The notes under the pieces were generated by a model. The model ran no database searches, was not told where the DNA came from, and was given only the letters and a program-made list of their open reading frames with translations. Source: a virus. From it: DNA of 39,675 bases. Location: positions 1 through 39,675 of IMG/VR virus record IMGVR_UViG_3300021197_001202; one strand, given 5' to 3'. Positions 1,094 to 27,323 of this stretch are shown piece after piece (the stretch's first letter is position 1; each line of letters opens with the position of its first letter). The translations under genes were made by a program, and so were the position numbers.

Positions 1094-1108
1094 ACAACCC
1101 TAGGTTGT
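1094..1108. promoter_or_regulatory. Repressor-type operator upstream of integrase
   Basis: ACAACCCTAGGTTGT, a perfect ACAAC-N5-GTTGT palindrome; with flanking G and C it extends to a 17-bp 7-3-7 palindrome (1093-1109). It lies 50 bp upstream of the integrase start, as expected for control of integrase transcription by the phage repressor. Confidence 0.65.
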
Positions 1109-1158
1109 CTTTCAAGGCAGATTTGTTGTAACCTCTACGCATCAGATGGAGGTGTATC

Positions 1159-2187
1159 GTGGCAGTCATTCAAAAGAGAAGAGATGCGAAGGGAAACGTC
1201 CGCTACCGGGTGTTGATCCGCAAGGCCGGGAACCCGACGGTTTCCAAAACCTTTTCCAAGTGGCAGAACGCCAAGGACTTTGCCAACAAGACGGAGACGG
1301 ACTTGGAGATGGGCGAGTTCAGGGCTGAAAAGACTGTGCTGTCCGACGTGATTGAGCAGAGCTTCAAGGTGCTAAACATGTCTGCCGACAAGGCCAAGGT
1401 CTACCGCCAGATCGACAAGCACTTCGGGCGCTACGCCCTAAAGGATTTGAGGCGAGAGGTGTACTTCGAGTATGTCGAGAAGCGCAAGCACGAGGTCAAG
1501 GCCAGCTCTATCAACATCACATTCGCCTACATGCGGACGCTGTTAAAATTTGCAGAGACCTACATGCAGCTCAAGCCGGAGATGGCGGAGTTCAATCTTG
1601 CAAAGGATTGGCTCGCAAGTCAGAAGTTCATCTCTAAGTCTGATCGCAGAACTCGCAGGGTCACCGAGGAGGAGCTGCGTGCCATCGAAGAGGAGTGGAT
1701 TCTTGATGACTTCCAAGGGGCGCAGGAAAAGAGCTGGTCTCTTCCAGAGGTCATGCGCTTCGCTGTCCTGACCGCGATGCGTAGGGGCGAGCAGTTCACG
1801 CTGCGCTGGCATGAGCTGGACGCCGAGGAGAGAACGGTTGGCTGCTGGCGCAAGCACCCCAAGGGGAAAGTCTACAGCCGGGTTCCGCTACTGGCAGATG
1901 CGATGGCGATCATCGAGAAGCAAGAGCGCCGAGGGGAGTTCATTTTTAACGTTAGCTCGAACCACGCGGCCAAGATATTCAATCGATACAGAGACAAAGC
2001 AGGCATCAAGGATCTGGTGTGGCACGACCTGCGCCACGAGGGTGTCAGCAGACTGACCGAGATGGGGATCTTCCTGCCATCCGAGGTAGCCATGTTCAGC
2101 GGCCACAGGGACATCCAAATGCTTCAGTCATACACGCACCTCCGGGCAGAGCACATAGTCGGGAATTTGAGAGAAAAGGGACTTTAG
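1159..2187 (+). CDS. int: Tyrosine recombinase, phage integrase
   Basis: A 342-residue protein of normal length for a phage integrase. An N-terminal arm-binding-like domain (about residues 1-50), a SAM-like core-binding helix bundle (about 55-150) and a C-terminal catalytic domain are visible. The catalytic set can be read as the first Arg in LTAMRRGEQ, HDLRHE (His-x-x-Arg), the SGH motif, and the nucleophile Tyr in LQSYTHL. It would integrate and excise the phage at the adjacent repeat-rich region. The start is GTG 1159 with GGAGG at 1148-1152. An operator palindrome 50 bp upstream suggests repressor control. It points toward the leftward repressor/excisionase genes, which end just beyond it. 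Confidence 0.95.
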   Translation: MAVIQKRRDAKGNVRYRVLIRKAGNPTVSKTFSKWQNAKDFANKTETDLEMGEFRAEKTVLSDVIEQSFKVLNMSADKAKVYRQIDKHFGRYALKDLRREVYFEYVEKRKHEVKASSINITFAYMRTLLKFAETYMQLKPEMAEFNLAKDWLASQKFISKSDRRTRRVTEEELRAIEEEWILDDFQGAQEKSWSLPEVMRFAVLTAMRRGEQFTLRWHELDAEERTVGCWRKHPKGKVYSRVPLLADAMAIIEKQERRGEFIFNVSSNHAAKIFNRYRDKAGIKDLVWHDLRHEGVSRLTEMGIFLPSEVAMFSGHRDIQMLQSYTHLRAEHIVGNLREKGL

Positions 2188-2210
2188 GTTGTTTGTCACC
2201 TTTAGGTTGT
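2183..2210 (+). repeat. Direct repeat TTTAGGTTGT across the int stop codon
   Basis: Two exact 10-bp copies at 2183-2192 and 2201-2210, 18 bp apart, lie where the integrase and the leftward PrtN-like gene converge. Each ends in GTTGT, the half-site of the phage operator, but lacks the matching left half. I see no hairpin terminator here. Confidence 0.5.
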
Positions 2211-2405
2211 AATTTGACGCAAACCCTCGTCGCGCTTGGCGGCGAAGTAGGCCTCCACGACTTTGCGATCCGCCACGCGCTGACGCCCCAGCTTGTATGT
2301 GGGGCAGCAGAACCTGTCGCTGGAGATCGCGTTCAACAGACTGCTCTTCTTCATGCCGAAGAGAGCAGACAGCTCTGTCAAATCCAAATAAGGTCGTTCC
2401 ATCAT
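2202..2405 (-). CDS. Small DNA-binding protein, PrtN/excisionase-like
   Basis: A 67-residue protein with a winged-helix-like layout: LTELSALFGMKKSSLLNAI forms the putative helix-turn-helix, followed by PTYKLGRQRVADRKVVEAYF. This resembles the pyocin-activator PrtN family and small phage excisionases. Its start overlaps the repressor stop (ATGA at 2402-2405), so both are made from one transcript. Placed next to int and convergent with it, it may act as excisionase or as a transcription factor. The two roles cannot be separated from sequence. Confidence 0.65.
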   Translation of the reverse strand: MMERPYLDLTELSALFGMKKSSLLNAISSDRFCCPTYKLGRQRVADRKVVEAYFAAKRDEGLRQITT

Positions 2406-3085
2406 GACTCCAAGAACTTTCTAATTTTCGTGCCGCCAACCGAGTAGTTGTTCCCGCGTGCGCTCTTCTCAAACCGCAGGACGCACTCCCTGCCTGAGAT
2501 CTTGCCGTGTTTTTTCCAGATCTCCTCAGTGATCTCCAGCGCGTCCATCATCGCGCTACGCTGCGTCTGATACTCCGCCACCACCACCACTGTTACACCG
2601 GCGTTTTTCTGCGTCTCAGAGAAATTAACCGCGTACACGCCTTCGCTCGGGCGTTCTGCCATCTCGACACTGACCCTGAGCAGCCTGCCCCCATCGATCA
2701 ACGTAATATCATCGATTGCCTCTTCGTCGCTAAATGTTGCGCCGTTTCCAGAACCAACGAGATAAGACATCACGGCATAGACGCACGCCTTGTGGCGTCT
2801 CGCCAGCCTGATGTCTACCTCGATCTCGCCGTGCGCGGTGCCTAGCATCAGCCACGAGTGCTTTACGCCGAGCAGTGCAGCTAACCGTTTTGACAGCGCA
2901 GCCCTTGGCACGGTCTCTCCCGCGAGCCACTTCCTGACGGCCTCTTGGCTGACATTCAACCTAGCCGCTATCTCTGTCTGCTGACCCTTGCCGTAGTCCG
3001 GTATTTCATCGCTTGCGTTACATGCTTCGAGCAAGCGGGTTGCAAAGTTGTCCAAAACAACCCCCTGTTGTAGATGTATGGACAC
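2402..3085 (-). CDS. Phage repressor, XRE-type helix-turn-helix
   Basis: A protein of up to 227 residues with an N-terminal XRE helix-turn-helix (about residues 35-75: QTEIAARLNVSQEAVRKWLA, then LGVKHSWLMLG). The C-terminal 150 residues do not show the Ser-Lys dyad context of LexA/S24 autopeptidase repressors that I would recognise, so induction may not follow the RecA-cleavage route. The ORF can start at GTG 3085 or at TTG 3055. The latter has an AGGGGG motif at good spacing and gives an N-terminus MDNFATRLLEAC, typical of this family. Two ACAAC-N5-GTTGT palindromes flank the start region (3057-3071, 3116-3130), suggesting autoregulation. It most likely holds the whole phage silent through the scattered copies of that palindrome. 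Confidence 0.85.
   Translation of the reverse strand: MSIHLQQGVVLDNFATRLLEACNASDEIPDYGKGQQTEIAARLNVSQEAVRKWLAGETVPRAALSKRLAALLGVKHSWLMLGTAHGEIEVDIRLARRHKACVYAVMSYLVGSGNGATFSDEEAIDDITLIDGGRLLRVSVEMAERPSEGVYAVNFSETQKNAGVTVVVVAEYQTQRSAMMDALEITEEIWKKHGKISGRECVLRFEKSARGNNYSVGGTKIRKFLES
3057..3071. promoter_or_regulatory. Operator palindrome at the repressor start
   Basis: ACAACCCCCTGTTGT, a perfect ACAAC-N5-GTTGT match. On the minus strand it contains the AGGGGG that would serve as ribosome binding site for the TTG start at 3055, so repressor binding here could block its own expression. Confidence 0.65.
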
Positions 3086-3099
3086 TGAGTCTATTCCGA

Positions 3100-4482
3100 C
3101 TAATTTGAATTGTCTACAACTTTTAGTTGACTCGATCCCCGCAAGCTATCAACAAAAGTTAGCAGATTGCTCTGGGCCTCGTCTTTTTCTGAGAGCACGT
3201 CCCTGACCAAAAGGTCGGCTGGGGTATTCGCCAAGATATGTATGACGCGAACCGGGCGCGTTTGACCCTGCCTGTGCAGCCTCGCGTTAAACTGCTGGTA
3301 TAGCTCAAGGCTCCAAGACAAACCAAACCAAACGATAAGGCTTCCGCCTTTTTGAAGATTAAGCCCGTGCCCGGCACTGGCAGGGTGCGCCAGCATCAAC
3401 GGAACGTCACCTTTGTTCCACTTGTCGATCAACTTAGAATCTTTTTTTAAGATTTGAGCGTAGTGGATGGCTTTGCAAATCCGCTCGGCGTCTGCTTGAA
3501 AGTTGTAGGCGATCAGCACCGGCTCGTTAGCTGCCTCGACGATCTCCTTCAGCGCCTCGATCTTGGCGTCGTGCAGAACCTCGTAGCCCTCCTCGGTGTA
3601 GAGCGACCCAGAGGATACTTGCAGGAGCTTGTTGATCTTCACCGCCGCGTTGGCTGCAAGCACCTCGCCCTGCTCCAGCTCGATCAGGAAATCGTCCTGC
3701 ATCTGCTTGTAGGCTTTCTGAGCCTTGGGCGGCAGCGACACCTCCACATCGCTGTCTATCCGCTGCGGCAGTTCTAGGTAATCGTCTGCGTCCATCCGCA
3801 GCACCAGATCGGCCACCCTCTCTTGCAACAGATCAACGCGGTCAGGTCTGACCTCATACTGAGACCATTGAGGGTTGCCGACTTGGCGGCAGTAGGTTTC
3901 GAGGAACTTGCCCCGGGTATCACCTAGCCGCTTACCCCTGTCGAGCAGGTAGATCTGCGGCCACAGCTCCATCAAGCTGTTGGGTGCCGGTGTCCCGGTG
4001 AGCTGCACCATCCGCTTGATGCTCCCCGACTTCACCACCTGACGCAGCGCCTTCCACCTCTGGCTGCTGTGACTTTTGAATGAGCTGCTTTCGTCGATTA
4101 CTACGGCGTCGTAGTGCCAATCGCGCTGCAAAGCGTTTACCAACCAAGGTACATTCTCCCTGTTAATAATGTGAATCGGTGCCGAGGAGTGCATCGCCTC
4201 CTCGCGCTTGGCGGGGCTGAGTCCCGCTATTACAGAGAACCGCAGCGCACGGAGGTGCTGCCAGTTCTTAATCTCGGTGGGCCATGTGTGCTGCGCCACC
4301 CGAAGAGGTGCGATGATCAGCACCTTCTTGATGTCCTTGGTGACCAACAGATCGACCAGTGCCGTCAGCGTGCTGACGGTCTTGCCCAACCCCATGTCCA
4401 CCCACAGCGCCGCGTGGTGATTGTCCTTGATGAATTGCGCCGCCCGAAGCTGGTACTGGTGCAGGTCTGTGTGCTTTAAAAT
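3100..4482 (-). CDS. SNF2-family DNA helicase/translocase
   Basis: A superfamily 2 ATPase with Walker A DMGLGKT, motif II DESS (VVIDESSSFKS), motif III-type LTGTPAPN, and the C-terminal arginine-finger region QFNARLHRQGQTRP. An ATG start at 4401 would sit on Walker A and cut off the Q-motif region that the family needs. In the same frame upstream lies LHQYQLRAAQFI, which is the expected N-terminus. No ATG, GTG or TTG is available there. An ATT at 4482-4480 with AGGGG about 8 bases upstream is the best start, overlapping the end of the VRR-NUC gene by 7 bp. Phages commonly pair this helicase with a VRR-NUC nuclease in a replication/recombination module. Confidence 0.88.
   Translation of the reverse strand: MLKHTDLHQYQLRAAQFIKDNHHAALWVDMGLGKTVSTLTALVDLLVTKDIKKVLIIAPLRVAQHTWPTEIKNWQHLRALRFSVIAGLSPAKREEAMHSSAPIHIINRENVPWLVNALQRDWHYDAVVIDESSSFKSHSSQRWKALRQVVKSGSIKRMVQLTGTPAPNSLMELWPQIYLLDRGKRLGDTRGKFLETYCRQVGNPQWSQYEVRPDRVDLLQERVADLVLRMDADDYLELPQRIDSDVEVSLPPKAQKAYKQMQDDFLIELEQGEVLAANAAVKINKLLQVSSGSLYTEEGYEVLHDAKIEALKEIVEAANEPVLIAYNFQADAERICKAIHYAQILKKDSKLIDKWNKGDVPLMLAHPASAGHGLNLQKGGSLIVWFGLSWSLELYQQFNARLHRQGQTRPVRVIHILANTPADLLVRDVLSEKDEAQSNLLTFVDSLRGSSQLKVVDNSN
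3116..3130. promoter_or_regulatory. Second operator palindrome upstream of the repressor
   Basis: ACAACTTTTAGTTGA matches the operator at 9 of 10 arm bases. It lies inside the last codons of the SNF2 gene and upstream of the repressor start. The minus strand has TTGTAG (3119-3114) followed 18 bases later by AATAGA, a weak sigma-70-like promoter that this site would cover. Confidence 0.5.
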
Positions 4483-4736
4483 AGGAGTTTCCCCTGATCG
4501 ATGTTGTCTACGACGTAGACGTGAAAGCCGTGCTCCTTGAGTCGCCGGTGGATTGCGCTCTGGTAGGCCGTTGCGGACTTACCGGGTGCCTTGAACTCAA
4601 TCATCAGGCACTCACCGTCTTTGAAATAAATCATATCGGGCACCCCGCGCTGCGAGGTTGAGACCCACTTGAAGGCCAGCCAGCCCCGGTCACGGGCGTA
4701 GCGGTTGACGGTTCCCTCGATGTGGGACTCACGCAT
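4476..4736 (-). CDS. VRR-NUC domain nuclease
   Basis: An 86-residue stand-alone VRR-NUC protein of the PD-(D/E)xK superfamily. The nuclease core reads GVPDMIYF followed by CLMIEFKAPG, giving the Asp and the Glu-x-Lys metal-binding residues; an N-terminal Glu (ESHIEGTV) completes the usual set. Small VRR-NUC proteins of this size act as structure-specific nucleases. It overlaps the methyltransferase by 8 bp upstream and the SNF2 gene by 7 bp downstream, so all three are co-translated. Confidence 0.9.
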   Translation of the reverse strand: MRESHIEGTVNRYARDRGWLAFKWVSTSQRGVPDMIYFKDGECLMIEFKAPGKSATAYQSAIHRRLKEHGFHVYVVDNIDQGKLLF

Positions 4737-5775
4737 TGGTTGTCTTATCTATTTTTTGTTGTAATTGATCGCACAAAACAACCCAAGCTATTGCAGCGGT
4801 CTGAGGCACTACTCCGTTCCCCAGCAGCCTAAGTCTGTCCACCCGGAAGACACCCCCATCAGCCACTCGACCCACGTTGGGTTCAGGGAGCCAGACTGGG
4901 GCGGTTTGTTGTCCTCTTGTGTCGCCACCGATGTCAGGCTTGGAGTATTCCGGTTGTACTCCGATGGATACGCGCCCTCTTTGCTGTTGTGAGCCGTGGG
5001 TGTCGGCCATTGTTTCGCTGCCGTGCTTAATCCATCTCCCGACGTTTTGCTCAGACCCTTGCGATTGTGATTGCCGTTTATTGTCGGCGTCGGCCACATA
5101 ACCTGCTCGATCAACCCCCTCTGGCTGGTGGTTCCGTCTTTGTTCTTCGCCCTCACCGTTCCATTCTTTGTTTGATAGAGCTCCCCTCCTCGTATCGGGT
5201 TTCCGTCTGTCGCAGTTGGCGTCACCCAATATGTAGACCCGCTTTCTCTGGTGAGGTGCGCCTGCTTCAGCCGCGCTGAATACTCCCCACGTCGTTGCGT
5301 AACCAAGGCTTTCCAAGTCTCCAATGACCTCTCTGAGTCCGAGACTGATGTGTCCCTCGACGTTCTCAAAGAAGCACCGAACAGGTCTAATTGTGTCGAT
5401 ATGTCGTTTGATGTGAGGCCAAAGGTGTCGGGGATCGTCTGCGCCTCTCCGCTTTCCAGCCGCGCTAAATGGTTGGCAGGGGTAACCGCCAGTGAGGACA
5501 TCAATTCGGTCTCGAAAGCAGTGTACTGGCAGGGTTTTAAGATCCGTCCACACAGGTGCCGGAACCATTTGTCCCTCTTCCATCTTTGCAACCAAGTTCG
5601 CAGCAGCGAAGGCTTCGATCTCCACATGAGCGATGACTCGATGCTCAAACCCGGCAAGCTCAAGTCCTCGCTCGATGCCACCGTAGCCAGTGCAGAGACT
5701 GAGGACGGTAGGTAATTTTTTGGAACTATCCACATTCTTATTTCCTGTATCTTTCTGATTCGTAGCCCTCGACAT
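4729..5775 (-). CDS. dcm: DNA (cytosine-5-) methyltransferase
   Basis: A 348-residue C5 methyltransferase. Motif I (LSLCTGYGGIERGL, SAM binding), motif IV with the catalytic Cys (GGYPCQPFS), motif VI (FENV), motif VIII (QRKRVYILG) and the C-terminal motif X-like VDRLRLLGNGVVPQ are all present. Between motif VIII and the end lies a hydrophilic, low-conservation stretch with repeated VADAD/MADT/GDAN units, taking the place of a target recognition domain. It starts inside the end of the polymerase gene (38-bp overlap). It would methylate phage DNA, probably against host restriction. The same DNA is fully open in a second frame (see 4809-5735). Confidence 0.93.
   Translation of the reverse strand: MSRATNQKDTGNKNVDSSKKLPTVLSLCTGYGGIERGLELAGFEHRVIAHVEIEAFAAANLVAKMEEGQMVPAPVWTDLKTLPVHCFRDRIDVLTGGYPCQPFSAAGKRRGADDPRHLWPHIKRHIDTIRPVRCFFENVEGHISLGLREVIGDLESLGYATTWGVFSAAEAGAPHQRKRVYILGDANCDRRKPDTRRGALSNKEWNGEGEEQRRNHQPEGVDRAGYVADADNKRQSQSQGSEQNVGRWIKHGSETMADTHGSQQQRGRVSIGVQPEYSKPDIGGDTRGQQTAPVWLPEPNVGRVADGGVFRVDRLRLLGNGVVPQTAAIAWVVLCDQLQQKIDKTTNA
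4809..5735 (-). CDS. Long overlapping reading frame inside the methyltransferase gene
   Basis: On the same strand as the methyltransferase but in another frame, 308 codons stay open from ATG 5735 (334 if read from 5813). AGGA lies 7-8 bases before ATG 5735. The product contains three WPTPT-like units (YWVTPTA, MWPTPTI, QWPTPTA), the segment EYSARLKQAHLT, and near the end LNPTWVEWLMG. I recall proteins with these patterns being annotated next to or in place of C5 methyltransferases in phages and metagenomes. They correspond codon by codon to conserved methyltransferase motifs in the other frame. It may be a genuine overlapping gene or a shadow kept open by constraint on the methyltransferase; no function is proposed. 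Confidence 0.3.
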   Translation of the reverse strand: MWIVPKNYLPSSVSALATVASSEDLSLPGLSIESSLMWRSKPSLLRTWLQRWKRDKWFRHLCGRILKPCQYTAFETELMSSLAVTPANHLARLESGEAQTIPDTFGLTSNDISTQLDLFGASLRTSRDTSVSDSERSLETWKALVTQRRGEYSARLKQAHLTRESGSTYWVTPTATDGNPIRGGELYQTKNGTVRAKNKDGTTSQRGLIEQVMWPTPTINGNHNRKGLSKTSGDGLSTAAKQWPTPTAHNSKEGAYPSEYNRNTPSLTSVATQEDNKPPQSGSLNPTWVEWLMGVSSGWTDLGCWGTE

Positions 5776-7264
5776 CCACCGGCAGACCCTTGGCCCACTT
5801 CGGCAGCTCGCACATCAACGTATTGAACTCATCCAGTGACCCGTGACCGACCTTGGTGTCGGCAACAATCTCATCATGAACTGTCATGATCGGGTCGTAG
5901 CCTGCGGCGTCGAGCTTGAGCAGCGCGTGCGCCAGCAGATCCCGGGCAACGGCCTGCGTGATCGACTGCACAAGCGAACCACCATAGCTCTCGATGGTTC
6001 CCCACTTGTGGGTGAAGTTGTTCATCCCTTGGTATGTGATCTTGTTGTTGATCAACGCCGCCTGCGGGAACGAGAGGCACCTGCCAGACGGCAGCTTGAA
6101 CAGCAGGTCGCCCTTGACCATCATGAAGTCACCGGCTCGGGTCTCCTCACGCCTGCCGTTCTGGATGGCGTTGTACGCTGCGCTTTCAACCTCGTGCCAC
6201 AGCTTGACGATAGGCCTGTTGGCGGCTCGCCAATCGTCGCGGATCTTGAGCGCCGTAGCCTCATCAACATCGGTGCCGTAGTTTGCTGCCATCTTCTGGA
6301 ACGCCTTCACACCGCCTTGGTAGCCAAGGGCCAGCGATGCCACCTTGCCGATGAACCTTTGATCCTTATCGACGTTCATGTACGTTATTCCGTACATGTC
6401 AGATGCCGTGACCTTGTACAGATCCAGCCCCTCGCAGAATGACTGCAACACGGCCTCGTGACCGGCAAGCCAAGCCAGCACCCGGGCCTCGATGGCTGAG
6501 TAGTCGGAGACGATAAGACGCCTGCCTTTACTTGCGATCAGCATCCCTCGCAGGCACGAGGCCAGCAGAGCCATCGGCTCTCCCCGGAGCTGATCCGGGC
6601 AGCGGTACCGCAGGGCATCGATGATGGGGTCAACGTCATCGACTATGGGCCGCGGCAGATTCTGGGGCTGGAAGTGTCGCCCAGACCAGCGCCCGGTGGC
6701 TGCACCGTGGTACATGCCTGTGCCGTGCGCCCGGCCATCCCGGCCCAAGCAGGCCAGCATCGCCTGAAACTTCTTGGTGCTGGACTTCGACAGCGCCTGC
6801 CGGATCTGTAGAAAGCGATACACTTTAGGTGGGCACACGCCTTCGAGGGCGCAGGTCACCGCGGCCTTGTCATATGAATCCATCGCCAGCCCCTGACGGT
6901 TGATCCATTCGAGGGACTTGGCCCGAGAGGATGTTGAGGCCAGCTCGCCGTCGGTCAGCTCAAACACTTCTCTGTTCAGCTCTGACTCCACCTTCTTGAT
7001 GATCTCGATGGCGTGCTCGCAGTTTGCAGCGTCCAGCTTCACGCCCCGCAGGTTCATGCGCTGGTCTGCCTCCCAGACCAATCGCTCACCGGGGTGGAGT
7101 GGTCTAAGCTCTTTGCGTATTGCTCTCTCAGCGACCACATCTTGCAGGCAGTAGTTGTACAGCTCGCGCAGCAGCTCCTGATCCTGCACGCGCTTGCCCC
7201 GGTAGGGTTTGCAGAGCCGTTGGATCAAGTATTTGCCGCGTTTGTCTTTAAGGTTATTCATCAT
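5738..7264 (-). CDS. polA: Family A DNA polymerase, polymerase part (split gene)
   Basis: A 508-residue protein from ATG 7264, covering the end of the 3'-5' exonuclease domain (motif Exo III, YNYCLQD, about residues 37-43) and the whole polymerase domain: GAATGRWSGRHFQPQNLPR, motif A (VSDYSAIEARVLAWLAG), the finger helix region around GKVASLALGYQGG, and motif C (TVHDEIV). Phage polymerases of this type normally carry the exonuclease in the same chain. Here Exo I and II are in the preceding frame (7254-7616), which ends 11 bp inside this one. Either two polypeptides are made, or a +1 frameshift joins them, or there is a sequence error. It replicates phage DNA together with the primase-helicase and the single-strand-binding protein. 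Confidence 0.9.
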   Translation of the reverse strand: MMNNLKDKRGKYLIQRLCKPYRGKRVQDQELLRELYNYCLQDVVAERAIRKELRPLHPGERLVWEADQRMNLRGVKLDAANCEHAIEIIKKVESELNREVFELTDGELASTSSRAKSLEWINRQGLAMDSYDKAAVTCALEGVCPPKVYRFLQIRQALSKSSTKKFQAMLACLGRDGRAHGTGMYHGAATGRWSGRHFQPQNLPRPIVDDVDPIIDALRYRCPDQLRGEPMALLASCLRGMLIASKGRRLIVSDYSAIEARVLAWLAGHEAVLQSFCEGLDLYKVTASDMYGITYMNVDKDQRFIGKVASLALGYQGGVKAFQKMAANYGTDVDEATALKIRDDWRAANRPIVKLWHEVESAAYNAIQNGRREETRAGDFMMVKGDLLFKLPSGRCLSFPQAALINNKITYQGMNNFTHKWGTIESYGGSLVQSITQAVARDLLAHALLKLDAAGYDPIMTVHDEIVADTKVGHGSLDEFNTLMCELPKWAKGLPVDVEGYESERYRK

Positions 7265-7616
7265 CCATCCCCATGAACTCGCCACACTTTCCAAGGGCGC
7301 GGGGGTACGCCTGCGCCGCAGCAAGTGCCGCGGTGTCGTTCCACTGTGCTATTGGGATGCTGGGCCACATAAGTACCCTCTGCCAGATAGCTAACTCGAA
7401 GAAGCTGTTCCACGCCCAGACCTCAGCCCCCCGCTCGATCAAGCGGAACAGCTCAGTCGGCGCAGGCATTCCGGGCGTCCACAGCTCAGGCGGCTCATCG
7501 TTCACCGCCCATGCTAGGCACAGCACCTCGGTGCTGGGGTGGTCGGCATACGCCCACGCACCCGCAGCCCGGATGTCGCACTCCGAGTAGGTCTCGAAGT
7601 CGATGCTGACGATCAA
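7254..7616 (-). CDS. 3'-5' exonuclease N-terminal part of the split DNA polymerase
   Basis: A 120-residue frame with Exo I (SIDFETYSE) and an Exo II-like segment (WNSFFELAIW), followed by ARALGKCGEFMGM-like sequence that in related phage polymerases continues directly into KDKRGKYLI, found here in the next frame. It stops with TAA at 7254, while the polymerase frame has ATG ATG at 7264-7259, so stop and start overlap. Without Exo III, which is in the next frame, this part could not be an active exonuclease unless the two parts assemble or are fused by frameshifting. The start is TTG 7616, overlapping the SSB stop (TTGA). Confidence 0.85.
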   Translation of the reverse strand: MIVSIDFETYSECDIRAAGAWAYADHPSTEVLCLAWAVNDEPPELWTPGMPAPTELFRLIERGAEVWAWNSFFELAIWQRVLMWPSIPIAQWNDTAALAAAQAYPRALGKCGEFMGMDDE

Positions 7617-8167
7617 GCCAAGAACTCCTCCGCCTCCTCTACCACGTCGGCTGCGGTCTCGCTGCTGATGTCATCGAAGCCTTCTAGGGCATTGCCGCCG
7701 CCACCGAACCGCTCGCCTTCCCGTGCAAACTGCACGGCTTCGAGGGAGCAGAGAACGCCAGAGAATGCAGCGCCGGATGACCATGCGTAGAAGCGCACCT
7801 TTGCGTTCACATAGTCACCGCCCTGCGGCCTCCCATCTTCCTCTACCAGCGCCGACAGATCCTTGTCGATGATCGGCACCCGCTTGCGGTTGTTGGCCTT
7901 CACGATGTACTTGTTCTCGTACTCGGCGCGGTCGGTCTCGTCGCCATCTTGCAGCGACAGGAACAGTTTCTTTGGCTGCTTCTCTCCCCACTTCTCCATC
8001 GCCAGCTCGCTGACGATCTTTCGCAGGTTCTTAATCTGGTCGGCGTCGGCGTCCTTGTCCAGAATGAACGTGCCGCTGTATTTCAGGTTGTCGGAACCCT
8101 CAAACGCCGTTGGCGTGAAGAGGCTAGGGAAACTCAAACGAGCGTTTTCTATCTTTACCGTAGACAT
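7613..8167 (-). CDS. Single-stranded DNA-binding protein, DUF2815 / Enc34 family
   Basis: A 184-residue protein starting MSTVKIENARLSFPSLFTP, the signature opening of DUF2815, an OB-fold single-strand-binding family related to T7 gp2.5. The C-terminus is acidic (ETAADVVEEAEEFLA), as expected for an SSB tail that recruits polymerase and other replication proteins. It lies directly between the DUF2800 gene pair and the polymerase, the order usual for this replication module. Its stop overlaps the TTG start of the exonuclease frame. Confidence 0.92.
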   Translation of the reverse strand: MSTVKIENARLSFPSLFTPTAFEGSDNLKYSGTFILDKDADADQIKNLRKIVSELAMEKWGEKQPKKLFLSLQDGDETDRAEYENKYIVKANNRKRVPIIDKDLSALVEEDGRPQGGDYVNAKVRFYAWSSGAAFSGVLCSLEAVQFAREGERFGGGGNALEGFDDISSETAADVVEEAEEFLA

Positions 8168-8177
8168 AGTTTTTTCC

Positions 8178-9304: not shown

Positions 9305-9403
9305 GGATACTTTTTTCTTTGACGTACAACATTGAGTTGTATCATGATGTAGACAAGTTACTAACGCAAACAAATTTGTCGATAAATTTTCAGAAGGACG
9401 AAA
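9305..9403. promoter_or_regulatory. Divergent early promoter region
   Basis: This short gap separates the leftward replication operon from the rightward Cro-like gene. Rightward, TTGACG (9319-9324) and TATCAT (9340-9345) lie on either side of the operator palindrome, although the 15-base spacing is short. Leftward, TTGTCT (9357-9352) is a possible -35. A small palindrome ACAAATTTGT (9370-9379) lies nearer the Cro-like gene, and AGAAGGA at 9392-9398 is its ribosome binding site. Confidence 0.6.
9326..9340. promoter_or_regulatory. Operator palindrome between the divergent early operons
   Basis: ACAACATTGAGTTGT, perfect ACAAC-N5-GTTGT. Its reverse complement, ACAACTCAATGTTGT, matches the operator at 14161-14175 in all but one of 15 bases, centre included. 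Positioned to block both early promoters. Confidence 0.75.
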
Positions 9404-9795: not shown

Positions 9796-9808
9796 TCAGG
9801 GGATGTAG

Positions 9809-16651: not shown

Positions 16652-16670
16652 GCGTCATCGGAGCTAGAAA

Positions 16671-16694: not shown

Positions 16695-16763
16695 CGATTT
16701 CGAGGTGGGTCGGATTCTGAGGCGTCAAGGCCGGTCAAACCCGCTTCGCAAATCTGGGACTCC

Positions 16764-16782: not shown

Positions 16783-16814
16783 TGGCGTATCGGGTTACAC
16801 ACTGAGGGCGTTTT

Positions 16815-20376: not shown

Positions 20377-20581
20377 TCTATCAAGGTTCGATGACCTGCT
20401 TGCCCGGGCGAAGGAGAAAAAGAAACCCAAGCCCGACATCAAGCAGGTCTTTAAGGAATTCGAGGCCTACAGGGCGCAGGCGGCTGCCCCTGTCGCTGAG
20501 AAAAGTGAGGGAAGTGAAAAACCCGAAAAAGTGGGGAAACCCAAAAAACCGAAGCAACCCGAAGAGGACTTTTTGAAATGA
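20369..20581 (+). CDS. Small Lys-rich protein between portal and scaffold
   Basis: A 70-residue protein, MADLSRFDDLLARAKEKKKP, with a Lys/Glu/Pro-rich C-terminal half ending in DFLK. TTG 20369 start with GGGAGG at 20353-20358, overlapping the portal stop. Small charged proteins at this place occur in many podoviruses; role unknown, perhaps in capsid assembly. Confidence 0.65.
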   Translation: MADLSRFDDLLARAKEKKKPKPDIKQVFKEFEAYRAQAAAPVAEKSEGSEKPEKVGKPKKPKQPEEDFLK

Positions 20582-20841
20582 GCGAGCTAGAGACGATGGA
20601 GCTGCACGAGTTGCAGGCCAAGGCCGACGCGGCCAGTGCGATGCTGAACAGCGAGGTATTCAACCAAGCCTTCAGCTCAATGAATCAGGGGATTGTTGAC
20701 CAGATATTACAGACACCGCCCGAGGCCAATGAAGAGCGCGAAAGGCTCTACTCCATGTTCAAGGCAGGCCAAATGTTCGTGCAGCAATTTGCTACATTAA
20801 TCAACAACTTAGAGTTGCGTAATCAACAGGATGGTGAGTAA
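20578..20841 (+). CDS. Small helical protein before the scaffold gene
   Basis: An 87-residue acidic helical protein (MELHELQAKADAASAMLNSE, later MFKAGQMFVQQFATLINNLE). Start overlaps the previous stop by ATGA. No family recognised. Its DNA carries an operator-like sequence ACAACTTAGAGTTGC at 20804-20818. Confidence 0.65.
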   Translation: MSELETMELHELQAKADAASAMLNSEVFNQAFSSMNQGIVDQILQTPPEANEERERLYSMFKAGQMFVQQFATLINNLELRNQQDGE

Positions 20842-20842
20842 A

Positions 20843-21805
20843 ATGGCGGAAGCAAACATTGATCCGGCAGAGCAACCCTCCCAAGACTCTTCGGAACAAG
20901 ACACGATTGATAGATTGACCACGCTGTTGGAGTCCGATCTGGACGAACCAGAGGTCGAGGAGCAATCCGATCAAGAGGCCGATGAGGCCGACATAGTGGA
21001 AGCAGAGTTCGAGGAAGCACCCGAAGAGGACACCGCCGAGGCAGAGGAGGTCGATGAAGACCCAACCGATGAAGCCGAGGAGGAGGAATCAGAAGAGCTT
21101 AGATTTGAGGTCGATGGCGAGAGCCTAAGTGCCGAAGAGCTAAAGCTAGGGTACCTCAGACAACGTGATTACACACAGAAGACGCAGCATGTAGCCCAGC
21201 AGAGGAAGGCACTAGAGGCCCAAACCGAAGAAGCTCAAGCGACCATGAATGCGTTGATGTCTGCCGCTGGCGCTGACATTTCGCGTTTTCAGAGCGTGAA
21301 CTGGGAACAGGCAGCGATAGACAATCCTGATCAGTATAAGCAGGCCAAGGCGGCCTATGAGCAGGCACAGTCCACCTACAACTTAATTAAGGCGCAGGCG
21401 GATCAGTTTCAGACTCAGCAACAGCAACAGACCGAGGCGGCCTCAAAAGAGGCAGCAAAAGAAAGTCTGACTGTCCTGAAGACAAACATACCCAACTGGA
21501 ACAACGATCTTTATTACAAGATTGGTGAGTACGCTCAAGGTTTAGGTGTCAGCGGCGAGGAGTTCAATAAGGTCTCCGATCACCGATTGATCACCGCGCT
21601 GTGGAAGGCCATGCAATTTGATCAGGCAAAACAGGTAGCGGCTAAAAAGAAAGTGAAGCCGTCTGCCACAAAAACTTTGTCTGGCTCCAAAGCAGACTCG
21701 ACAAAGGCCGTTGAATCAGAGAGCGCCCGTAAAACACGGGAGCGATTGAGGAAGACGGGCACTGTTGATGACGCAGCGGCAGCCCTCTTGAATAGGATGA
21801 AATGA
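20843..21805 (+). CDS. Capsid scaffolding protein
   Basis: A 320-residue protein directly before the capsid gene. The first ~100 residues are very acidic (EEAPEEDTAEAEEVDEDPTD), the middle is Gln-rich coiled coil (AYEQAQSTYNLIKAQADQF), and the end is basic with TRERLRKTGTVDDAAAALL. This acidic-helical-basic plan, with ELKLGYLRQRDYTQKTQ, is typical of podovirus scaffolds. It shapes the procapsid and leaves before DNA fills it. ATG 20843 with GGTGAG upstream is chosen; ATG 20831 also fits. Confidence 0.85.
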   Translation: MAEANIDPAEQPSQDSSEQDTIDRLTTLLESDLDEPEVEEQSDQEADEADIVEAEFEEAPEEDTAEAEEVDEDPTDEAEEEESEELRFEVDGESLSAEELKLGYLRQRDYTQKTQHVAQQRKALEAQTEEAQATMNALMSAAGADISRFQSVNWEQAAIDNPDQYKQAKAAYEQAQSTYNLIKAQADQFQTQQQQQTEAASKEAAKESLTVLKTNIPNWNNDLYYKIGEYAQGLGVSGEEFNKVSDHRLITALWKAMQFDQAKQVAAKKKVKPSATKTLSGSKADSTKAVESESARKTRERLRKTGTVDDAAAALLNRMK

Positions 21806-21806
21806 A

Positions 21807-22706
21807 ATGCCAACAGTAAGCGGCACACTTAAAACTTTTGATCAGGTAGGTAAGCGTGAAGATGTCGAGGACATCATCTACGATATCAGCCCAACCGATA
21901 CCCCCATGCTCACCAGCATCGGCACCTCAACGGCTGGCGCAACGCTGCACCAGTGGCTGCAAGACTCTCTTGCCCCTGTAGCGACCAACGCCAACGTGGA
22001 AGGCGCGGACGCGGGCACCGCCTCTACCGTCACACAGACCACAAAGACTGCCAACACGCAGATCTTTGACAAGGTCGTGCAGGTATCAGGCACCGCCGAA
22101 GCGGTAGGCACCTATGGCCGTACAAGCGATCTGGCTTATGCTATTGCTAAGGCTGGCAAGGAAATCAAGCGCGACATAGAGCATTCGTTTGTTGGCGCTG
22201 GACAGGCAGGAACCGCTGGAAACAGCTCAACTGCACGTCAATTGACCTCCGCTGCCAACCAGATCAGCTCGGCCACCACCAACACCGCTGGCTCGAATCG
22301 AGCACTAACGGAGGCACTCGTCCTCGACGTGGCACAAAAAGTGTACGAAAAAGGCGGCGACGCTACGCAGATGCAGGTAACACCCTCGCACTCTGTAACG
22401 GTTGCAGGCTTCGCCACGGCCTCTGGTCGCCAGCGAGACTTCGGCAGCAGCACTACGGTAGTGAACTCTGTGGATATCTTGGTTACTCCATTTTCCACAA
22501 TATCTGTTGTTCCTAATCGGTTCCTGAACGCCAACACGGTGTTGATGCTGGATACCGAGTATTGGTCACGCGCAGTCCTGCGTCCTATGCAAACTGTTGT
22601 ACTGGCTAAGACCGGCGACAGCGACAAGCGTCAGATGCTGACAGAGCTTACCTTGGTGTGCGAGCACGACGAGGCGAGCGGCAAGATCGACGCGCTGACC
22701 GCGTAA
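21807..22706 (+). CDS. Major capsid protein, SU10/DUF5309 family
   Basis: A 299-residue HK97-fold capsid protein of the DUF5309 (SU10_MCP) family. The N-terminus (GTLKTFDQVGKREDVEDIIY, then ISPTDTPMLTSIG) and TYGRTSDLAYAIAKAGKEIKRD are diagnostic. It lies between scaffold and head-completion genes and is followed by a strong terminator, which would favour high expression of this gene. Confidence 0.95.
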   Translation: MPTVSGTLKTFDQVGKREDVEDIIYDISPTDTPMLTSIGTSTAGATLHQWLQDSLAPVATNANVEGADAGTASTVTQTTKTANTQIFDKVVQVSGTAEAVGTYGRTSDLAYAIAKAGKEIKRDIEHSFVGAGQAGTAGNSSTARQLTSAANQISSATTNTAGSNRALTEALVLDVAQKVYEKGGDATQMQVTPSHSVTVAGFATASGRQRDFGSSTTVVNSVDILVTPFSTISVVPNRFLNANTVLMLDTEYWSRAVLRPMQTVVLAKTGDSDKRQMLTELTLVCEHDEASGKIDALTA

Positions 22707-22732
22707 AGTTTGCTCATCCCTCCCCTGAGCAA

Positions 22733-22767
22733 GTCTCCCCCTTCGGGGGGAGACACCTTTTTCTTTT
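22733..22767 (+). terminator. Rho-independent terminator after the capsid gene
   Basis: GTCTCCCCC and GGGGGAGAC form a perfect 9-bp stem around TTCG, followed by ACC and a T-rich tail (TTTTTCTTTT). Partial read-through is needed for the downstream tail genes, for which I see no new promoter until about 27296. Confidence 0.9.
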
Positions 22768-22778
22768 GAGGTGGAAGA

Positions 22779-23078
22779 ATGTCTGAATTGAAGTCCCACA
22801 TTGTTCACGACGAGATTGAGGACAAGCTGCATGTGGCCCACACGCAGGATATTGCCCCGATCATCGCGGACAACATCGCCCGATCTAATGAGATCGACAA
22901 GCACGCAAAGTACGGCGAAACAGAGCGCGTGGCATCCATACCGATGGTGGTTGTGGTGCAGTGGATGCAGGAGGGTATTAACGTCATGAACCCCACCTAC
23001 GAGGATCAGAAGAAGATCAAGCAGCGCCTGAACAGCCCCGAGTACGCATACCTGAGAACCCGAGGCGGAAGAATATGA
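22779..23078 (+). CDS. Small conserved-type head or connector protein
   Basis: A 99-residue protein, KSHIVHDEIEDKLHVAHTQD, with ARSNEIDKHAKYGETERVAS and NPTYEDQKKIKQRLNSPEYA. Proteins with this plan sit between capsid and adaptor genes in marine podoviruses. The exact role is unknown; a virion minor protein is likely. Stop overlaps the adaptor start (ATGA). Confidence 0.7.
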   Translation: MSELKSHIVHDEIEDKLHVAHTQDIAPIIADNIARSNEIDKHAKYGETERVASIPMVVVVQWMQEGINVMNPTYEDQKKIKQRLNSPEYAYLRTRGGRI

Positions 23079-23989
23079 GTTTAGGGAACTACAGCGATCT
23101 AAAGACCTCAGTTTCAACATGGTTAAACCGCGACGATTTAGCCGCACAGGTTCCCGACTTTATTGCACTGGCCGAGACCCGGCTCAAGAAGAGATTCAAG
23201 GGCGTAACAACACTCTCCGACTCCAACTCCACATCGTCTTTCCTGACAAGTTACCCGGATGTGTACCTTTATGGCGCACTTATAGAGGCCGAGCCGTTTT
23301 TACAAAACGATCAACGACTTCAAACGTGGCTGGGTTTATATGATCGAGCCACGTCAGAAATCAGAATAGTTGACACGGCGTCTACGCTCACCAGCTACGA
23401 CGGCCTCAAGGCCACAATAGCCAACTGGCTGGATCGCGCCGACATTGATGACGCCATACCGAGCTTCATCGAGCTGGCAGAGAACCGCATCTTCCATGAG
23501 CTTCGCGCCCCAGTGAACGAGAAGACGATCCTTCTCACTCTGAGCAGCGACGGCTATGCGACTTTGCCGTCTGATTTCTTGGAGGCGAAGGATGTGTTTT
23601 GGAACTACAACCCGCTGTCTCGCGTTTCCCTGACTCAAATGCACAGCTACACCGAGCGCACAGGTGTCTCGCCAGAGATGTTCGCTAGAGAGACATTTAG
23701 GTTGCGCTTTCATCCCGTTCCAACTGCCGGTGGCAGTGACGAGCTACGGATGATCTATTACTTCGTACCGGATAGGTTGACCAGCAGCTCGCCGTCGAAC
23801 ACCAATGTTGTTTTTGCTGCCGCTCCGGAGCTTTATCTGCACGCCGCTCTATCCGAGTCGGCTAACTACCTTGGCATAGACGGGTCGCAGTACGAGTCAG
23901 CGTATCAGTCTGCTATGGGTCGCCTCATGCAGCACGCCGCTGAAGCGGAAAACGCAGGGTCAACCGCAACCGTTCAGATGGGATATTGA
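23075..23989 (+). CDS. Head-tail adaptor protein with a partial tandem duplication
   Basis: A 304-residue protein whose family normally has one domain of about 200 residues. Residues 107-286 form a full copy, starting SYDGLKATIANWLDRADI and ending near AAPELYLHAALSE. Residues 5-96 repeat only its beginning (NYSDLKTSVSTWLNRDDL) and its end (SYPDVYLYGALIEAEPFL), without the roughly 100-residue middle. The parent family lies at the head-tail joint of podoviruses and forms the ring below the portal. The extra half-domain is unusual (see findings). Confidence 0.8.
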   Translation: MSLGNYSDLKTSVSTWLNRDDLAAQVPDFIALAETRLKKRFKGVTTLSDSNSTSSFLTSYPDVYLYGALIEAEPFLQNDQRLQTWLGLYDRATSEIRIVDTASTLTSYDGLKATIANWLDRADIDDAIPSFIELAENRIFHELRAPVNEKTILLTLSSDGYATLPSDFLEAKDVFWNYNPLSRVSLTQMHSYTERTGVSPEMFARETFRLRFHPVPTAGGSDELRMIYYFVPDRLTSSSPSNTNVVFAAAPELYLHAALSESANYLGIDGSQYESAYQSAMGRLMQHAAEAENAGSTATVQMGY

Positions 23990-23990
23990 A

Positions 23991-26660
23991 ATGGCTGGAT
24001 TTTTTAAAGACAACCCCGCTGTTACCGCCGATGCATATACGCAGGACGCGCTCACAAGCAAGAACGCCGCCGAGGCCGCGAAGGTAGCGGCAGAGGCAGC
24101 CAAGGTAGCAGCCGAGGCAGCGAAGGCGGCGGCAGAGACCGCCGAGGCAAACACAGAAACAGCAGCCAACGGAATCACGGCGGACGCCGCTACGGCGACC
24201 ACCAAGGCCGGAGAGTCGGCGGCATCCGCGACACAGGCCGCCACCAGCGCAGGGCAAGCTGCCTCATCAAATTCAGCAGCAACAGCCAGCCAGACCGCAG
24301 CCGCGTCTTCCGCCACATCGGCCTCTAGCAGCGCCAGCACAGCGACCACCAAGGCCGGTGAGGCGTCAACCGCCGCATCAAATGCTGCCACCAGCGAAAC
24401 CAACGCCGCTGCAAGCGCCACTACCAGCGCAACCGAGGCCACAAACAGCGCGGCCAGCGCCGCCTCATCTTTGACCGCAAAAAATGCCGCCGAAACTGCG
24501 GAGACTAATGCGGAGACAGCAGAAACAAACGCAGCGGCTAGTCAAAGCGCAGCAGCGACATCTGCCACAAACGCCGCTGGATCTGCCACCACTGCCAGCA
24601 CCAAGGCCGGAGAGGCCGCAACATCAGCCACCAACGCCGCTGGCTCTGCTACATCCGCAGCAACCAGCGCATCTACCAGCACAACCCAAGCTGGCAACGC
24701 ATCGACATCCGCCACGTCTGCAAGTAGCTCTGCCTCTTCTGCCGCTTCGGCTCAATCAGCCGCAGAGACGGCCAAGACCGCAGCAGAGACAGCCAAGACC
24801 GCAGCAGAGACTGCGGAGACTAATGCCGAGACCGCAGAGACCAACGCCGCAGCAAGTCGAAGCGCAGCCGCCTCTTCTGCCACATCTGCCTCGAACAGCG
24901 CCACCACGGCGACCACGCAGGCTGGCACTAGCACGACTCAGGCCGGTAACAGCGCCACATCTGCAACGGCAGCGAGCAACTCAGCCTCCTCCGCCGCGTC
25001 GGCTCAGACAGCCGCCGAGGCCGCTAGGGACTCCGCACTTGCTGCTTTGGATAGTTTCGATGATCGCTATTTGGGATCTAAGTCCAGCGCACCGTCTCAA
25101 GATAACGACGGCAACGCTCTGGTATCCGGCGCACTGTACTTCGACAGTACAAGCAGCGCGATGAAGGTTTACGACGGGTCTAACTGGCTTAACGCCTACG
25201 CCTCGTTGTCTGTTGGAGACGGAGGGCTGACGCAGAATAACTTTACGACTGCCCTGAAGAACAAGCTGGACGGTATCGAGTCCAGCGCCGATGTCACCGA
25301 TACAGCGAATGTCGTGGGCGCTTTGACCGCCGGAACTAATGTAACTATTGCGTCAGATGGAACTATTTCGTCTGCTGGTGGTGACCCAACAGGTTTTTCA
25401 AGCTCCGGCGACGATGTGACTATATCCGCCGACGCAGATAACAACGCCGGTAATTCAGCAATTAAATTTGAAATAGATGGATCTGAGTTTGCGAGGTTCA
25501 GCACACAGTGGGATGACGGGTTAATTTTTGGATCAACCTCGATACCTACGAATGGCAGTATCGGCGGCAGTGAACTTACTTTGCTTCGGAAGGGAGCCTA
25601 TGGGGTCGCCAGTATTTCAAACGCCGCACCAAACGCAGTCTTTGGCAAGCCCAGCGCTCAAAATGACGTAATTCATATTAAATCCGGCACTACAGACGTT
25701 GGTGCAATTGGCATCATTCAAGACAACACACTTACAAATAGGGGGATGTATCTCCGAGGCGGGGTTAGTACCGAAACTGTTATACGACTGGAGGCTTCGA
25801 CACAAGCTTTAACACCGGCAACACAATCGGGTGGCGACTATGCTGCAAGGTCAAGTAACTCGACAGACTTAGGTTTAAGCGATGCTCGCTGGAAAGATTT
25901 TTACCTTGGCAACGACATATCGCACCGCGACAGCAGCGGCACTGCTAGAACTCTTTATGACAGAAGCGCTGATACGTTAGGTAACTCCTCAACGAATGTC
26001 ACTGCCGCGACAGTAGACGGCACGAATTTCAAGGTTAATGGCGGCCAAGGCACCGATGGGCAGGTATTAACGTCAACCGGATCTGGTGTCGCTTGGGAGG
26101 CACCCGCTGGTGGCGGCGGCAGTGTTTGGAATGTGATTTCAAGCCAAACAATCTCATCATCAGTGTCGAGCGTAACCTTTACTGGTGTCACAGGTTACAA
26201 GGTCTATAAATTGATTATGACTGACATAAACCAATCATCGAATGTCACAGCGGATCAAATCCAACTGTCATCAGATAACGGCTCCAACTTCGCAACTTTT
26301 AACATTTCATCTATCGCGCTGAGATACAACTCAGGATCTACATCTCAAACATTTAACAACGACTTTTACCAAGGCAACAAGCTGCCTTTGATGTACAGCT
26401 TTAACGAATACAACAATAACGAAAAGCATCACGTCGAAGTAACTATATTTGGGTTGAACGATTCGTCTTTTACCTACACCCACAGCCGTCTTCTGTCGAG
26501 CTGGGGCTGGAATGTAAACGACATTAACGTTAACGAAACTTATGCGAGGACGCATGGCAGTGGCGGTTTAGCGTCTTTTAACGCATTCAAAGTTGAAACT
26601 ATGGCGGGAGGCACATACGACGGCGGCACTTTCACTCTTTACGGCTTATCAAATTCTTAG
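23991..26660 (+). CDS. Tail fibre with long alanine-rich repeat shaft
   Basis: An 889-residue fibre. Residues about 15-345 are almost wholly Ala, Ser, Thr and Glu in repeated units such as TTKAGEA, TSATNAAGS and AAETAETN, which should form a long trimeric coiled coil. Then comes SFDDRYLGSKSSAP and ALYFDSTSSAMKVYDGSNW, a fold common in marine phage fibres; then GGLTQNNFT/KLDGIESSADVTDT, a module also found in the gene at 28377. A glycine-rich joint (APAGGGGSVWNV) leads to a beta-rich C-terminal domain, probably the receptor-binding tip. Start ATG 23991, one base after the adaptor stop. Confidence 0.88.
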   Translation: MAGFFKDNPAVTADAYTQDALTSKNAAEAAKVAAEAAKVAAEAAKAAAETAEANTETAANGITADAATATTKAGESAASATQAATSAGQAASSNSAATASQTAAASSATSASSSASTATTKAGEASTAASNAATSETNAAASATTSATEATNSAASAASSLTAKNAAETAETNAETAETNAAASQSAAATSATNAAGSATTASTKAGEAATSATNAAGSATSAATSASTSTTQAGNASTSATSASSSASSAASAQSAAETAKTAAETAKTAAETAETNAETAETNAAASRSAAASSATSASNSATTATTQAGTSTTQAGNSATSATAASNSASSAASAQTAAEAARDSALAALDSFDDRYLGSKSSAPSQDNDGNALVSGALYFDSTSSAMKVYDGSNWLNAYASLSVGDGGLTQNNFTTALKNKLDGIESSADVTDTANVVGALTAGTNVTIASDGTISSAGGDPTGFSSSGDDVTISADADNNAGNSAIKFEIDGSEFARFSTQWDDGLIFGSTSIPTNGSIGGSELTLLRKGAYGVASISNAAPNAVFGKPSAQNDVIHIKSGTTDVGAIGIIQDNTLTNRGMYLRGGVSTETVIRLEASTQALTPATQSGGDYAARSSNSTDLGLSDARWKDFYLGNDISHRDSSGTARTLYDRSADTLGNSSTNVTAATVDGTNFKVNGGQGTDGQVLTSTGSGVAWEAPAGGGGSVWNVISSQTISSSVSSVTFTGVTGYKVYKLIMTDINQSSNVTADQIQLSSDNGSNFATFNISSIALRYNSGSTSQTFNNDFYQGNKLPLMYSFNEYNNNEKHHVEVTIFGLNDSSFTYTHSRLLSSWGWNVNDINVNETYARTHGSGGLASFNAFKVETMAGGTYDGGTFTLYGLSNS

Positions 26661-26669
26661 GACAAAAAT

Positions 26670-26912
26670 ATGAGCACAGGCGTATTCAAATTGGTCGATG
26701 GCGCAAGTATCGAACTGACAGAAGAAGAAAACAACCAACTAATTGCTGACCAAGAAGCTGCACAAGCAGCACGAGAGGCAACAGCGTGGATTGACAGTCG
26801 GTTGGAAGCCTATGGCGGCTGGACTGACCAGCTCGATGAGATGTTCCACGACTTTGACGCGTGGAAGGCTCGCATTCAAGCAGTTAAAGACGCAAATCCA
26901 AAGCCGCAATAG
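26670..26912 (+). CDS. Small protein after the fibre, possible fibre chaperone
   Basis: An 80-residue helical acidic protein, VFKLVDGASIELTEEENNQL, with EAAQAAREATAWIDSRLEAY. Small proteins of this type often follow tail fibre genes and help fibre assembly, which is the only basis for the suggestion. Confidence 0.6.
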   Translation: MSTGVFKLVDGASIELTEEENNQLIADQEAAQAAREATAWIDSRLEAYGGWTDQLDEMFHDFDAWKARIQAVKDANPKPQ

Positions 26913-26926
26913 TTGAGGATTAAACA

Positions 26927-27253
26927 ATGACAACGTGGAAAATCGAAAGTCTTGATCGACAGTTAACTGGCGACGGCGTCGGAGGTGTGACTGTTGCACA
27001 CTGGCGGGCGGTCAAAGAGGAAACGGTCGGGACAGGTGAAGACGCTGTAAACTACAGCGTAAACGCCTATGGGGCTGTGGATTTCACACCAGACCCCGCC
27101 TCTGAGGGTTTCATTCAGTACGCTGACCTAACGGAGGCTGACGTTATCGGTTGGGTCAAAAGTCAGATAGATGCTGCCGCAGTTGAGTCACGGCTGACGT
27201 CTGCTATGGAAGAGAAAAAGCAGCCAAGCACGGCGACAGGTGTGCCTTGGTGA
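26927..27253 (+). CDS. Virion-associated protein of a cyanophage/marine phage family
   Basis: A 108-residue protein with KIESLDRQLTGDGVGGVTVA, HWRAV, SVNAYGAVDF and YADLTEADVIGWVKSQID. I know this pattern from small proteins near fibre genes in cyanophages and other marine phages; no biochemical role is established. It is the last gene before the promoter of the lysis block. Confidence 0.7.
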   Translation: MTTWKIESLDRQLTGDGVGGVTVAHWRAVKEETVGTGEDAVNYSVNAYGAVDFTPDPASEGFIQYADLTEADVIGWVKSQIDAAAVESRLTSAMEEKKQPSTATGVPW

Positions 27254-27295
27254 GCAACAACTTTGCAAAGACAACAACTCAACGCCTCTAAGCCT

Positions 27296-27323
27296 TTGAT
27301 TTAGATACAACTTTCAGTAGAAT
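27296..27323 (+). promoter_or_regulatory. Promoter before the lysis genes with degenerate operator
   Basis: TTGATT (27296-27301), a 16-bp spacer and TAGAAT (27318-27323). The spacer holds ACAACTTTCAGTAGA (27307-27321), which matches the operator at 8 of 10 arm bases in the same position as the site in the 14153 promoter. Confidence 0.5.

Follow-up and report, generated by a model that had tools for sequence, protein, structure and literature searches.

The virus record IMGVR_UViG_3300021197_001202 of IMG/VR, analysed here at its full length of 39,675 nt (39.7 kb, hereafter the window), carries a family of ACAAC-N5-GTTGT palindromes at nearly every promoter region, the late ones included, as the initial annotation had proposed and as the site positions, the predicted promoters and the comparison with relatives bear out. 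The window probably represents a temperate phage in which one repressor with a 434-like helix-turn-helix (HTH) domain would directly repress nearly every operon, terminase included. Comparison with relatives gives strong support to this operator reading. What the sequence itself shows is where the sites lie, at what pitch, that they overlap predicted promoters, that they are conserved and that they correlate with a recognition helix. In the usual lambda scheme of temperate phages, the repressor silences early promoters only.

In the mechanism that we infer, the HTH repressor, most likely as a dimer, would bind WCAAC-N5-GTTGW (W = A or T). At int, at the repressor gene, in the divergent early region and before the first accessory operon, strong perfect dyads would work singly, and weaker dyads would form tandem pairs separated by a 4-bp gap (19-bp pitch), filled cooperatively by two dimers, at the second accessory operon, the terminase operon and probably the scaffold and lysis genes. 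Promoter occlusion would be the main mechanism, because most of the sites overlap the −35 element or the spacer of a predicted sigma-70 promoter.

Operator sites and predicted promoters

Perfect 10/10 matches to ACAAC-N5-GTTGT occur at 1094, 3057, 9326 and 12563, 9/10 matches at 3116, 14161, 16142, 20804 and 39067, and an 8/10 match at 27307; on recount, all the coordinates listed earlier proved correct. Base odds predict about 0.03 perfect sites in the window against the four seen and, when up to two mismatches are allowed, there are 28 sites versus 13.7 in shuffled sequences, none of 100 shuffles reaching 28. A motif-free search of all gapped palindromes ranked ACAA-N7-TTGT first at a half-site length of 4 (8 versus 0.39 expected), and ACAAC-N5-GTTGT and GACAA-N7-TTGTC joint first at a half-site length of 5 (4 versus 0.03 expected for each). 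The eight perfect ACAA-N7-TTGT sites (1044, 1094, 3057, 9326, 12563, 14142, 16123 and 16142) are all located in control regions preceding genes, and three of them, at 1044, 14142 and 16123, are additions to the earlier list, as is 20823, the 19-bp partner of 20804. The palindrome family is hence confirmed and is bigger than first listed, with about 10 confident and 3 probable sites, a distribution that is genome-wide but sparser than that of phage L5. A weight matrix built from 93 sites of relatives and scanned over the window gave its top ranks to 3116 (the highest), 12563, 9326, 1094 and 3057, with 14161, 27307, 16142 and 20804 also among the first ten; the sixth rank corresponded to TCACCTTTAGGTTGT at 2196-2210, directly 3′ of int. 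A chance origin of the sites is ruled out by the shuffles, the palindrome search, the matrix and the enrichment of pair spacing described below.

A sigma-70 scan, run blind to the operators over two stretches (1-17000 and 20000-39675), returned 6 and 7 promoter-like sites, respectively, a number that shuffled sequences also give. Five of these 13 predicted promoters coincide with operators, and in four of the five the dyad is placed in or across the −35/−10 spacer.

Two dyads precede int. The nearer one, ACAACCCTAGGTTGT (1094-1108), is found 57-58 bp before the gene in the relatives L001, L002, L004 and L005, and the upstream one, ACAAATAACTTTTGT (GACAA-N7-TTGTC, 1044-1058), located 50 bp from it, is kept in L001, L002 and L004. 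The repressor gene (2402-3055, minus strand; 217 aa), with a probable TTG start at 3055 where relatives have ATG, is preceded by two further dyads. One of them, ACAACTTTTAGTTGA (3116-3130), abuts the −35 element of the predicted repressor promoter TAGACA-17-TAGACT (3116-3088, minus strand) and would be centred near −42, a value that relies on an estimated start site; the other, ACAACCCCCTGTTGT (3057-3071), covers the ribosome-binding site, its N5 centre forming part of the Shine-Dalgarno sequence. In relatives the arms of the latter stay while its centre varies, being purine-rich on the coding strand throughout (AGGGG, GGGGG, TGGGG, CAGAG, CGGAG, TAGGA). This arrangement suggests self-limited expression of the repressor. 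A position near −42 is also the one from which CI of lambda activates the promoter of its own gene.

In the divergent early region, the 10/10 dyad ACAACATTGAGTTGT (9326-9340) is placed in the spacer of the predicted early rightward promoter TTGACG-18-CATGAT (9319-9348, plus strand). The dyad before the first accessory operon, ACAACTTCGTGTTGT (12563-12577), is located 65-69 bp ahead of the 12639 gene in L001, L002, L003 and L058. The second accessory operon is preceded by a tandem pair composed of ACAAGTTTTACTTGT (14142-14156), a perfect ACAA-N7-TTGT, and, 19 bp further, ACAACTCAATGCTGT (14161-14175), which lies in the spacer of the predicted promoter TTGTCA-16-TATTAT (14153-14180, plus strand). 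The terminase operon shows the same organization: ACAATTGCAATTTGT (16123-16137), also a perfect ACAA-N7-TTGT, is followed by ACAACCTGTACTTGT (16142-16156), 40 bp before terS and in the spacer of the predicted promoter TTCACA-18-CATAAT (16139-16168, plus strand). Direct repression of the terminase operon is likely.

The pairs at the scaffold and lysis genes are weaker than the others but are probably operators. Of the sites inside late genes, which the initial annotation had regarded with doubt, 20804 looks real. This probable dyad, ACAACTTAGAGTTGC (20804-20818, 9/10), is conserved, lies inside the gene preceding the scaffold gene and has a probable 19-bp partner, TCAACAGGATGGTGA (20823-20837), just 5′ of the likely scaffold ATG at 20843; the pair is intragenic and without a recognisable promoter in the sigma-70 scan. 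The site at 39067 was rejected as an operator and put down to chance, since its sequence is identical in the close relative L005, was not found in L001 and has no 19-bp partner.

At the lysis genes, the probable weak dyad ACAACTTTCAGTAGA (27307-27321) overlaps the predicted promoter TTGATT-16-TAGAAT (27296-27323, plus strand), and a possible weak partner, ACAACATCTACCCGC (27326-27340), conserved only in its left half, follows at 19 bp. Relatives L156-L165 retain both ACAAC half-sites (27307 and 27326) while nearby spacer bases vary, and the right half of 27307 is fixed as GTAGA because it is part of the −10 box. The site previously assigned to lysis is probably real; its left half is invariant in relatives and its right half is compromised. 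In the more distant relatives L166-L171 no such lysis promoter was found at that place. The leader from the lysis promoter to the endolysin gene (27324-27384, CTGCTACACCGCCGTCCGGCGACAGCA) is kept in relatives; a structured RNA leader was discarded, the predicted folding being no better than that of shuffled sequences.

Conservation and 19-bp pairing of the dyads

For the comparison, 56 loci with the repressor and 80 with TerL were retrieved. Sites at the repressor, int, divergent-early and accessory regions were found again at similar distances in relatives, most of which have sites at the promoter of the repressor itself, and among the sites of relatives the arms are kept while the N5 centre varies. 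At terS, most relatives with upstream DNA contain a site about 40 bp upstream of the start, whose flanks and centre have diverged and which is often one of a 19-bp pair; the site is located at 84-126 bp in those relatives where the alignment sets the start differently. Related phages thus carry the sites ahead of the corresponding genes, so that the lack of conservation that the initial annotation had named as refuting its reading was not observed. In the scaffold pair, 27 of 29 non-redundant sequences use TTG for the Leu codon at 20815 that provides this part of the motif, and no other codon of that gene has a stronger synonymous bias; L134 has the pair with a score of 20/20, whereas L117 and L131 have lost it.

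The weaker dyads of the window are paired at exactly 19 bp (14142/14161, 16123/16142 and 20804/20823). Under strict scoring of the window together with L001-L136, there are 29 non-redundant pairs at this distance, where the null expectation for any one distance is about 0.04, and under relaxed scoring 152 distinct pairs, compared with a mean of about 17 at other distances (range 12 to 59). Moreover, the partner score around 148 diverse perfect sites gave a single strong peak at 19 bp (z = 10.5). These counts come from related contigs and are thus non-independent, although 19 bp and its neighbouring distances are contrasted within a single data set. Perfect dyads in the window have no 19-bp partner, and therefore the picture is one of strong singles and weak pairs.

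Other pairs were observed. A weak 19-bp pair is present at the methylase/VRR-nuclease gene boundary (4729-4762), with similar weak pairs in L022, L035, L040, L043 and L047; 4729/4748 was not counted as an extra pair, since the similarity is limited to these five relatives and chiefly to left halves, and the sequence is probably coding. The portal gene of L085, L087, L095 and L098 contains an intragenic 19-bp pair resembling ACAACAAGYCGTTGG / CCAACYTWTCGTTGG, which may be an intragenic operator or the result of coding constraint. In L144 (Nitrosomonas marina Nm22), a bacterial contig with a relative of the repressor, CAAC-N5-GTTG pairs (449/473 and 3132/3156) have a pitch of 24 bp, not 19.

The repressor and its recognition helix

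Domain search assigned the N-terminal domain of the repressor to HTH_3. Sequence comparison with the phage repressors of known structure (PDB) put 434 CI and Cro nearest (E about 0.01-0.02), and 434 CI/Cro and P22 C2 are among the matches of the domain, with weak E-values (0.01-0.3). The operators of 434 have ACAA/TTGT ends, as the sites described here. The C-terminal domain (2405-2809) had no Pfam match and no S24 match, in agreement with the earlier view that this is no standard S24-type repressor. Its AlphaFold2 model (predicted local distance difference test, pLDDT, 89.6) has as its best match the homing endonuclease I-Ssp6803I (E 7e-4, template modelling (TM) score 0.58), followed by archaeal Hjc resolvases, which are PD-(D/E)XK folds. 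D116 is invariant and, judged by eye, the position of the catalytic Lys varies; the domain is therefore probably a dead PD-(D/E)XK-like nuclease fold serving oligomerisation, an assignment of moderate strength. A PD-(D/E)XK-like model without catalytic Lys in place of S24 is an unusual architecture for a phage repressor. If the fold assignment holds, it would mean that the repressor does not undergo S24 self-cleavage, and induction would probably follow another route. A single-query search with the C-terminal domain for repressors with a swapped HTH returned only the already known relatives of the SQEAVRKW type.

Homologous repressors are encoded by the Casjensviridae AchV4, PS6, SS2019XI, KPN_BP, X2_30 and AH2, where they are annotated merely as transcriptional regulator or repressor. 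These phages share with the window a syntenic early module (repressor, SNF2 helicase, VRR nuclease, PolA, SSB and exonuclease, then divergent cro and prim-pol), but they are siphoviruses and their head and tail genes differ. They provide a natural experiment, in which CAAC-N5-GTTG was counted over whole records with the reversed pattern as control (given as motif:control). In 33 IMG/VR relatives the sums were 200 motif and 23 control sites. Named phages with xEAVR[KR][WY] helices were enriched, with 58 sites versus 11 controls: SHEAVRKW in AchV4 (14:2) and KPN_BP (6:2), SPEAVRKW in X2_30 (13:1), SQEAVRRY in PS6 (13:4) and TQEAVRKW in SS2019XI (12:2). Phages with altered helices were not enriched (5 versus 7 in total), namely RcCWillis (TAETVRKW, 2:3), RcSalem (TSETVRKW, 2:3) and V18 (SRNAMSKW, 1:1). 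Enrichment of the motif thus correlates with the recognition helix of the repressor, which in the window is encoded at 2402-3055 (minus strand). Comparison with the annotation by eye placed 10 of the 14 AchV4 sites in intergenic regions or at gene starts, including those before a major tail gene and the holin, and PS6 sites ahead of terS and a head gene.

Alternative explanations, related systems and genomic context

The Cro-like protein encoded at 9404-9658 (plus strand), which has a Phage_CI_repr HTH and may be a second ligand of the operators, could instead be their main ligand, alone or alongside the repressor, the sites then setting a lytic timing programme. Its gene lies next to the 9326 site and it belongs to the CI/Cro kind of HTH proteins; Cro and CI share operators in lambda and 434. 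Nevertheless, the Cro-like sequences of the named relatives differ greatly while the motif is constant, so that they account less well for it, and the motif follows the recognition helix of the repressor instead; we consider this explanation very unlikely. That a host regulator, or another DNA function such as replication, packaging or a nucleoid protein, uses the sites is hardly credible. One motif in phages of different hosts would in principle fit a shared host factor, but those hosts span Achromobacter, Klebsiella, Pseudomonas, Marinobacter and Sinorhizobium, enrichment is absent from phages of Rhodobacter and Ruegeria that belong to the same family, and the sites are located at promoters, usually including that of the repressor itself. 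An unlikely explanation, finally, is that the late-gene sites are stoperators of the L5 type, at which bound repressor would stop elongating RNA polymerase and not initiation. The conserved 20804/20823 pair, intragenic, before the scaffold gene and without a recognisable promoter, and the similar pair inside the portal gene of other relatives agree with it, whereas the majority of the sites are on promoter elements, the sites are palindromic while those of L5 are asymmetric and direction-dependent (PMC9283540), and the intragenic conservation may in part be due to coding constraint. A roadblock-like role could apply only to the scaffold pair.

Several observations weigh against direct repression of nearly every operon by the 434-like repressor. 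The right half of the lysis site at 27307 is poor, and the conservation of the scaffold pair, being in coding sequence, may partly stem from protein constraint. The relatedness of the contigs makes the 19-bp pairs non-independent, and pairing is not universal, as the unpaired perfect dyads indicate. In the helix comparison, the three unenriched phages represent just two lineages (Rhodobacter and Ruegeria), and AH2, with the helix SQEGVRKW, is intermediate (4:0).

The closest system in logic is MrpR of the Bacillus subtilis prophage SPbeta, whose 15-bp binding element, SPBRE, recurs at about ten promoter regions of the prophage and which is itself built on a dead enzyme fold, that of a tyrosine recombinase (PMC10516654). 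Both systems would have one repressor built on a dead enzyme fold and one short element repeated in promoter regions, so that the present repressor, by analogy, would work like MrpR without being MrpR: it has an HTH and a nuclease-like fold and no tyrosine-recombinase fold, the folds being unrelated judging by their description, and its sites are WCAAC-N5-GTTGW dyads, some of them paired at 19 bp, which are present at the terminase-operon promoter too. P1 C1 also has autoregulation and many dispersed operators, 22 over the genome, but these are asymmetric 17-mers (ATTGCTCTAATAAATTT; PMC8546580) whereas the dyads described here are symmetric. The closeness to the L5 design suggested in the initial annotation is limited to the genome-wide distribution. 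L5 and cluster A phages have more than 20 repressor sites, late regions included, which are 13-bp, asymmetric, monomer-bound and direction-dependent, many of them in short intergenic spaces, and which also act on elongation (PMC9283540); the sites of the window are fewer, palindromic and mostly on promoters, and the N-terminal domain of the repressor is nearest the 434 repressor. The repressor shares its lambda/434/P22-type N-terminal HTH with lambda and 434 CI, and differs from them in lacking an S24/LexA-like C-terminal domain and in having operators also at the int, accessory and terminase promoters, as 15-bp dyads with 19-bp pitch.

Look-ups of terms in the papers on AH2 and AchV4 returned no description of operators, and the literature searched on genome-scattered phage operators or on Casjensviridae operators, which included few subscription journals, contained nothing for this repressor family. 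A wider proposal, to which we give slightly less than even credence, is that this is a repressor family not described before, combining a 434-like HTH with a dead nuclease-fold domain and common to environmental podovirus-like phages and Casjensviridae siphoviruses. It would silence the entire prophage, terminase and lysis included, by a two-tier code of strong single dyads and weak 19-bp pairs filled cooperatively, with some roadblocks inside late genes. The comparison suggests that, throughout a large phage group that has been little studied, a single repressor acts directly on nearly all operons. Its operator rule is simple and readable, so that immunity groups and lysogenic promoters could be predicted with nothing but the sequence, and the 19-bp pairing rule and the helix-operator link are directly testable.

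In the window, a leftward early operon encodes a DUF2800/PD-(D/E)XK protein, SSB, PolA, a C5 methylase, the VRR nuclease and the SNF2 helicase, with the repressor at its end, and a rightward operon contains the cro-like gene, prim-pol and an endonuclease. An integrase gene (int) is present, and the early modules are followed by the two accessory operons and by a late region, which contains the terminase, portal, capsid, tail and lysis genes. Synteny of the early module extends to Casjensviridae, for example Burkholderia phage AH2, and the best match of TerL is that of Pseudomonas phage PfAn1 (52.6% identity). The named phages searched included no close DNA relative of the window, bacterial genomes searched for prophage context and host provided only 3 partial relatives, and no tRNA was found in the window. 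A second long palindrome, GGTTAT-N5-ATAACC, is present exactly twice (0.02 expected in shuffles), before int (932-948) and between terS and terL (16579-16595). Positions 15671-15709, upstream of the terminase promoter, consist of TTGAGGCT repeated perfectly 4.9 times, and similar GAGGCxTxGAG-like repeats precede terS in relatives; this region is possibly the terminase recognition (pac) region.

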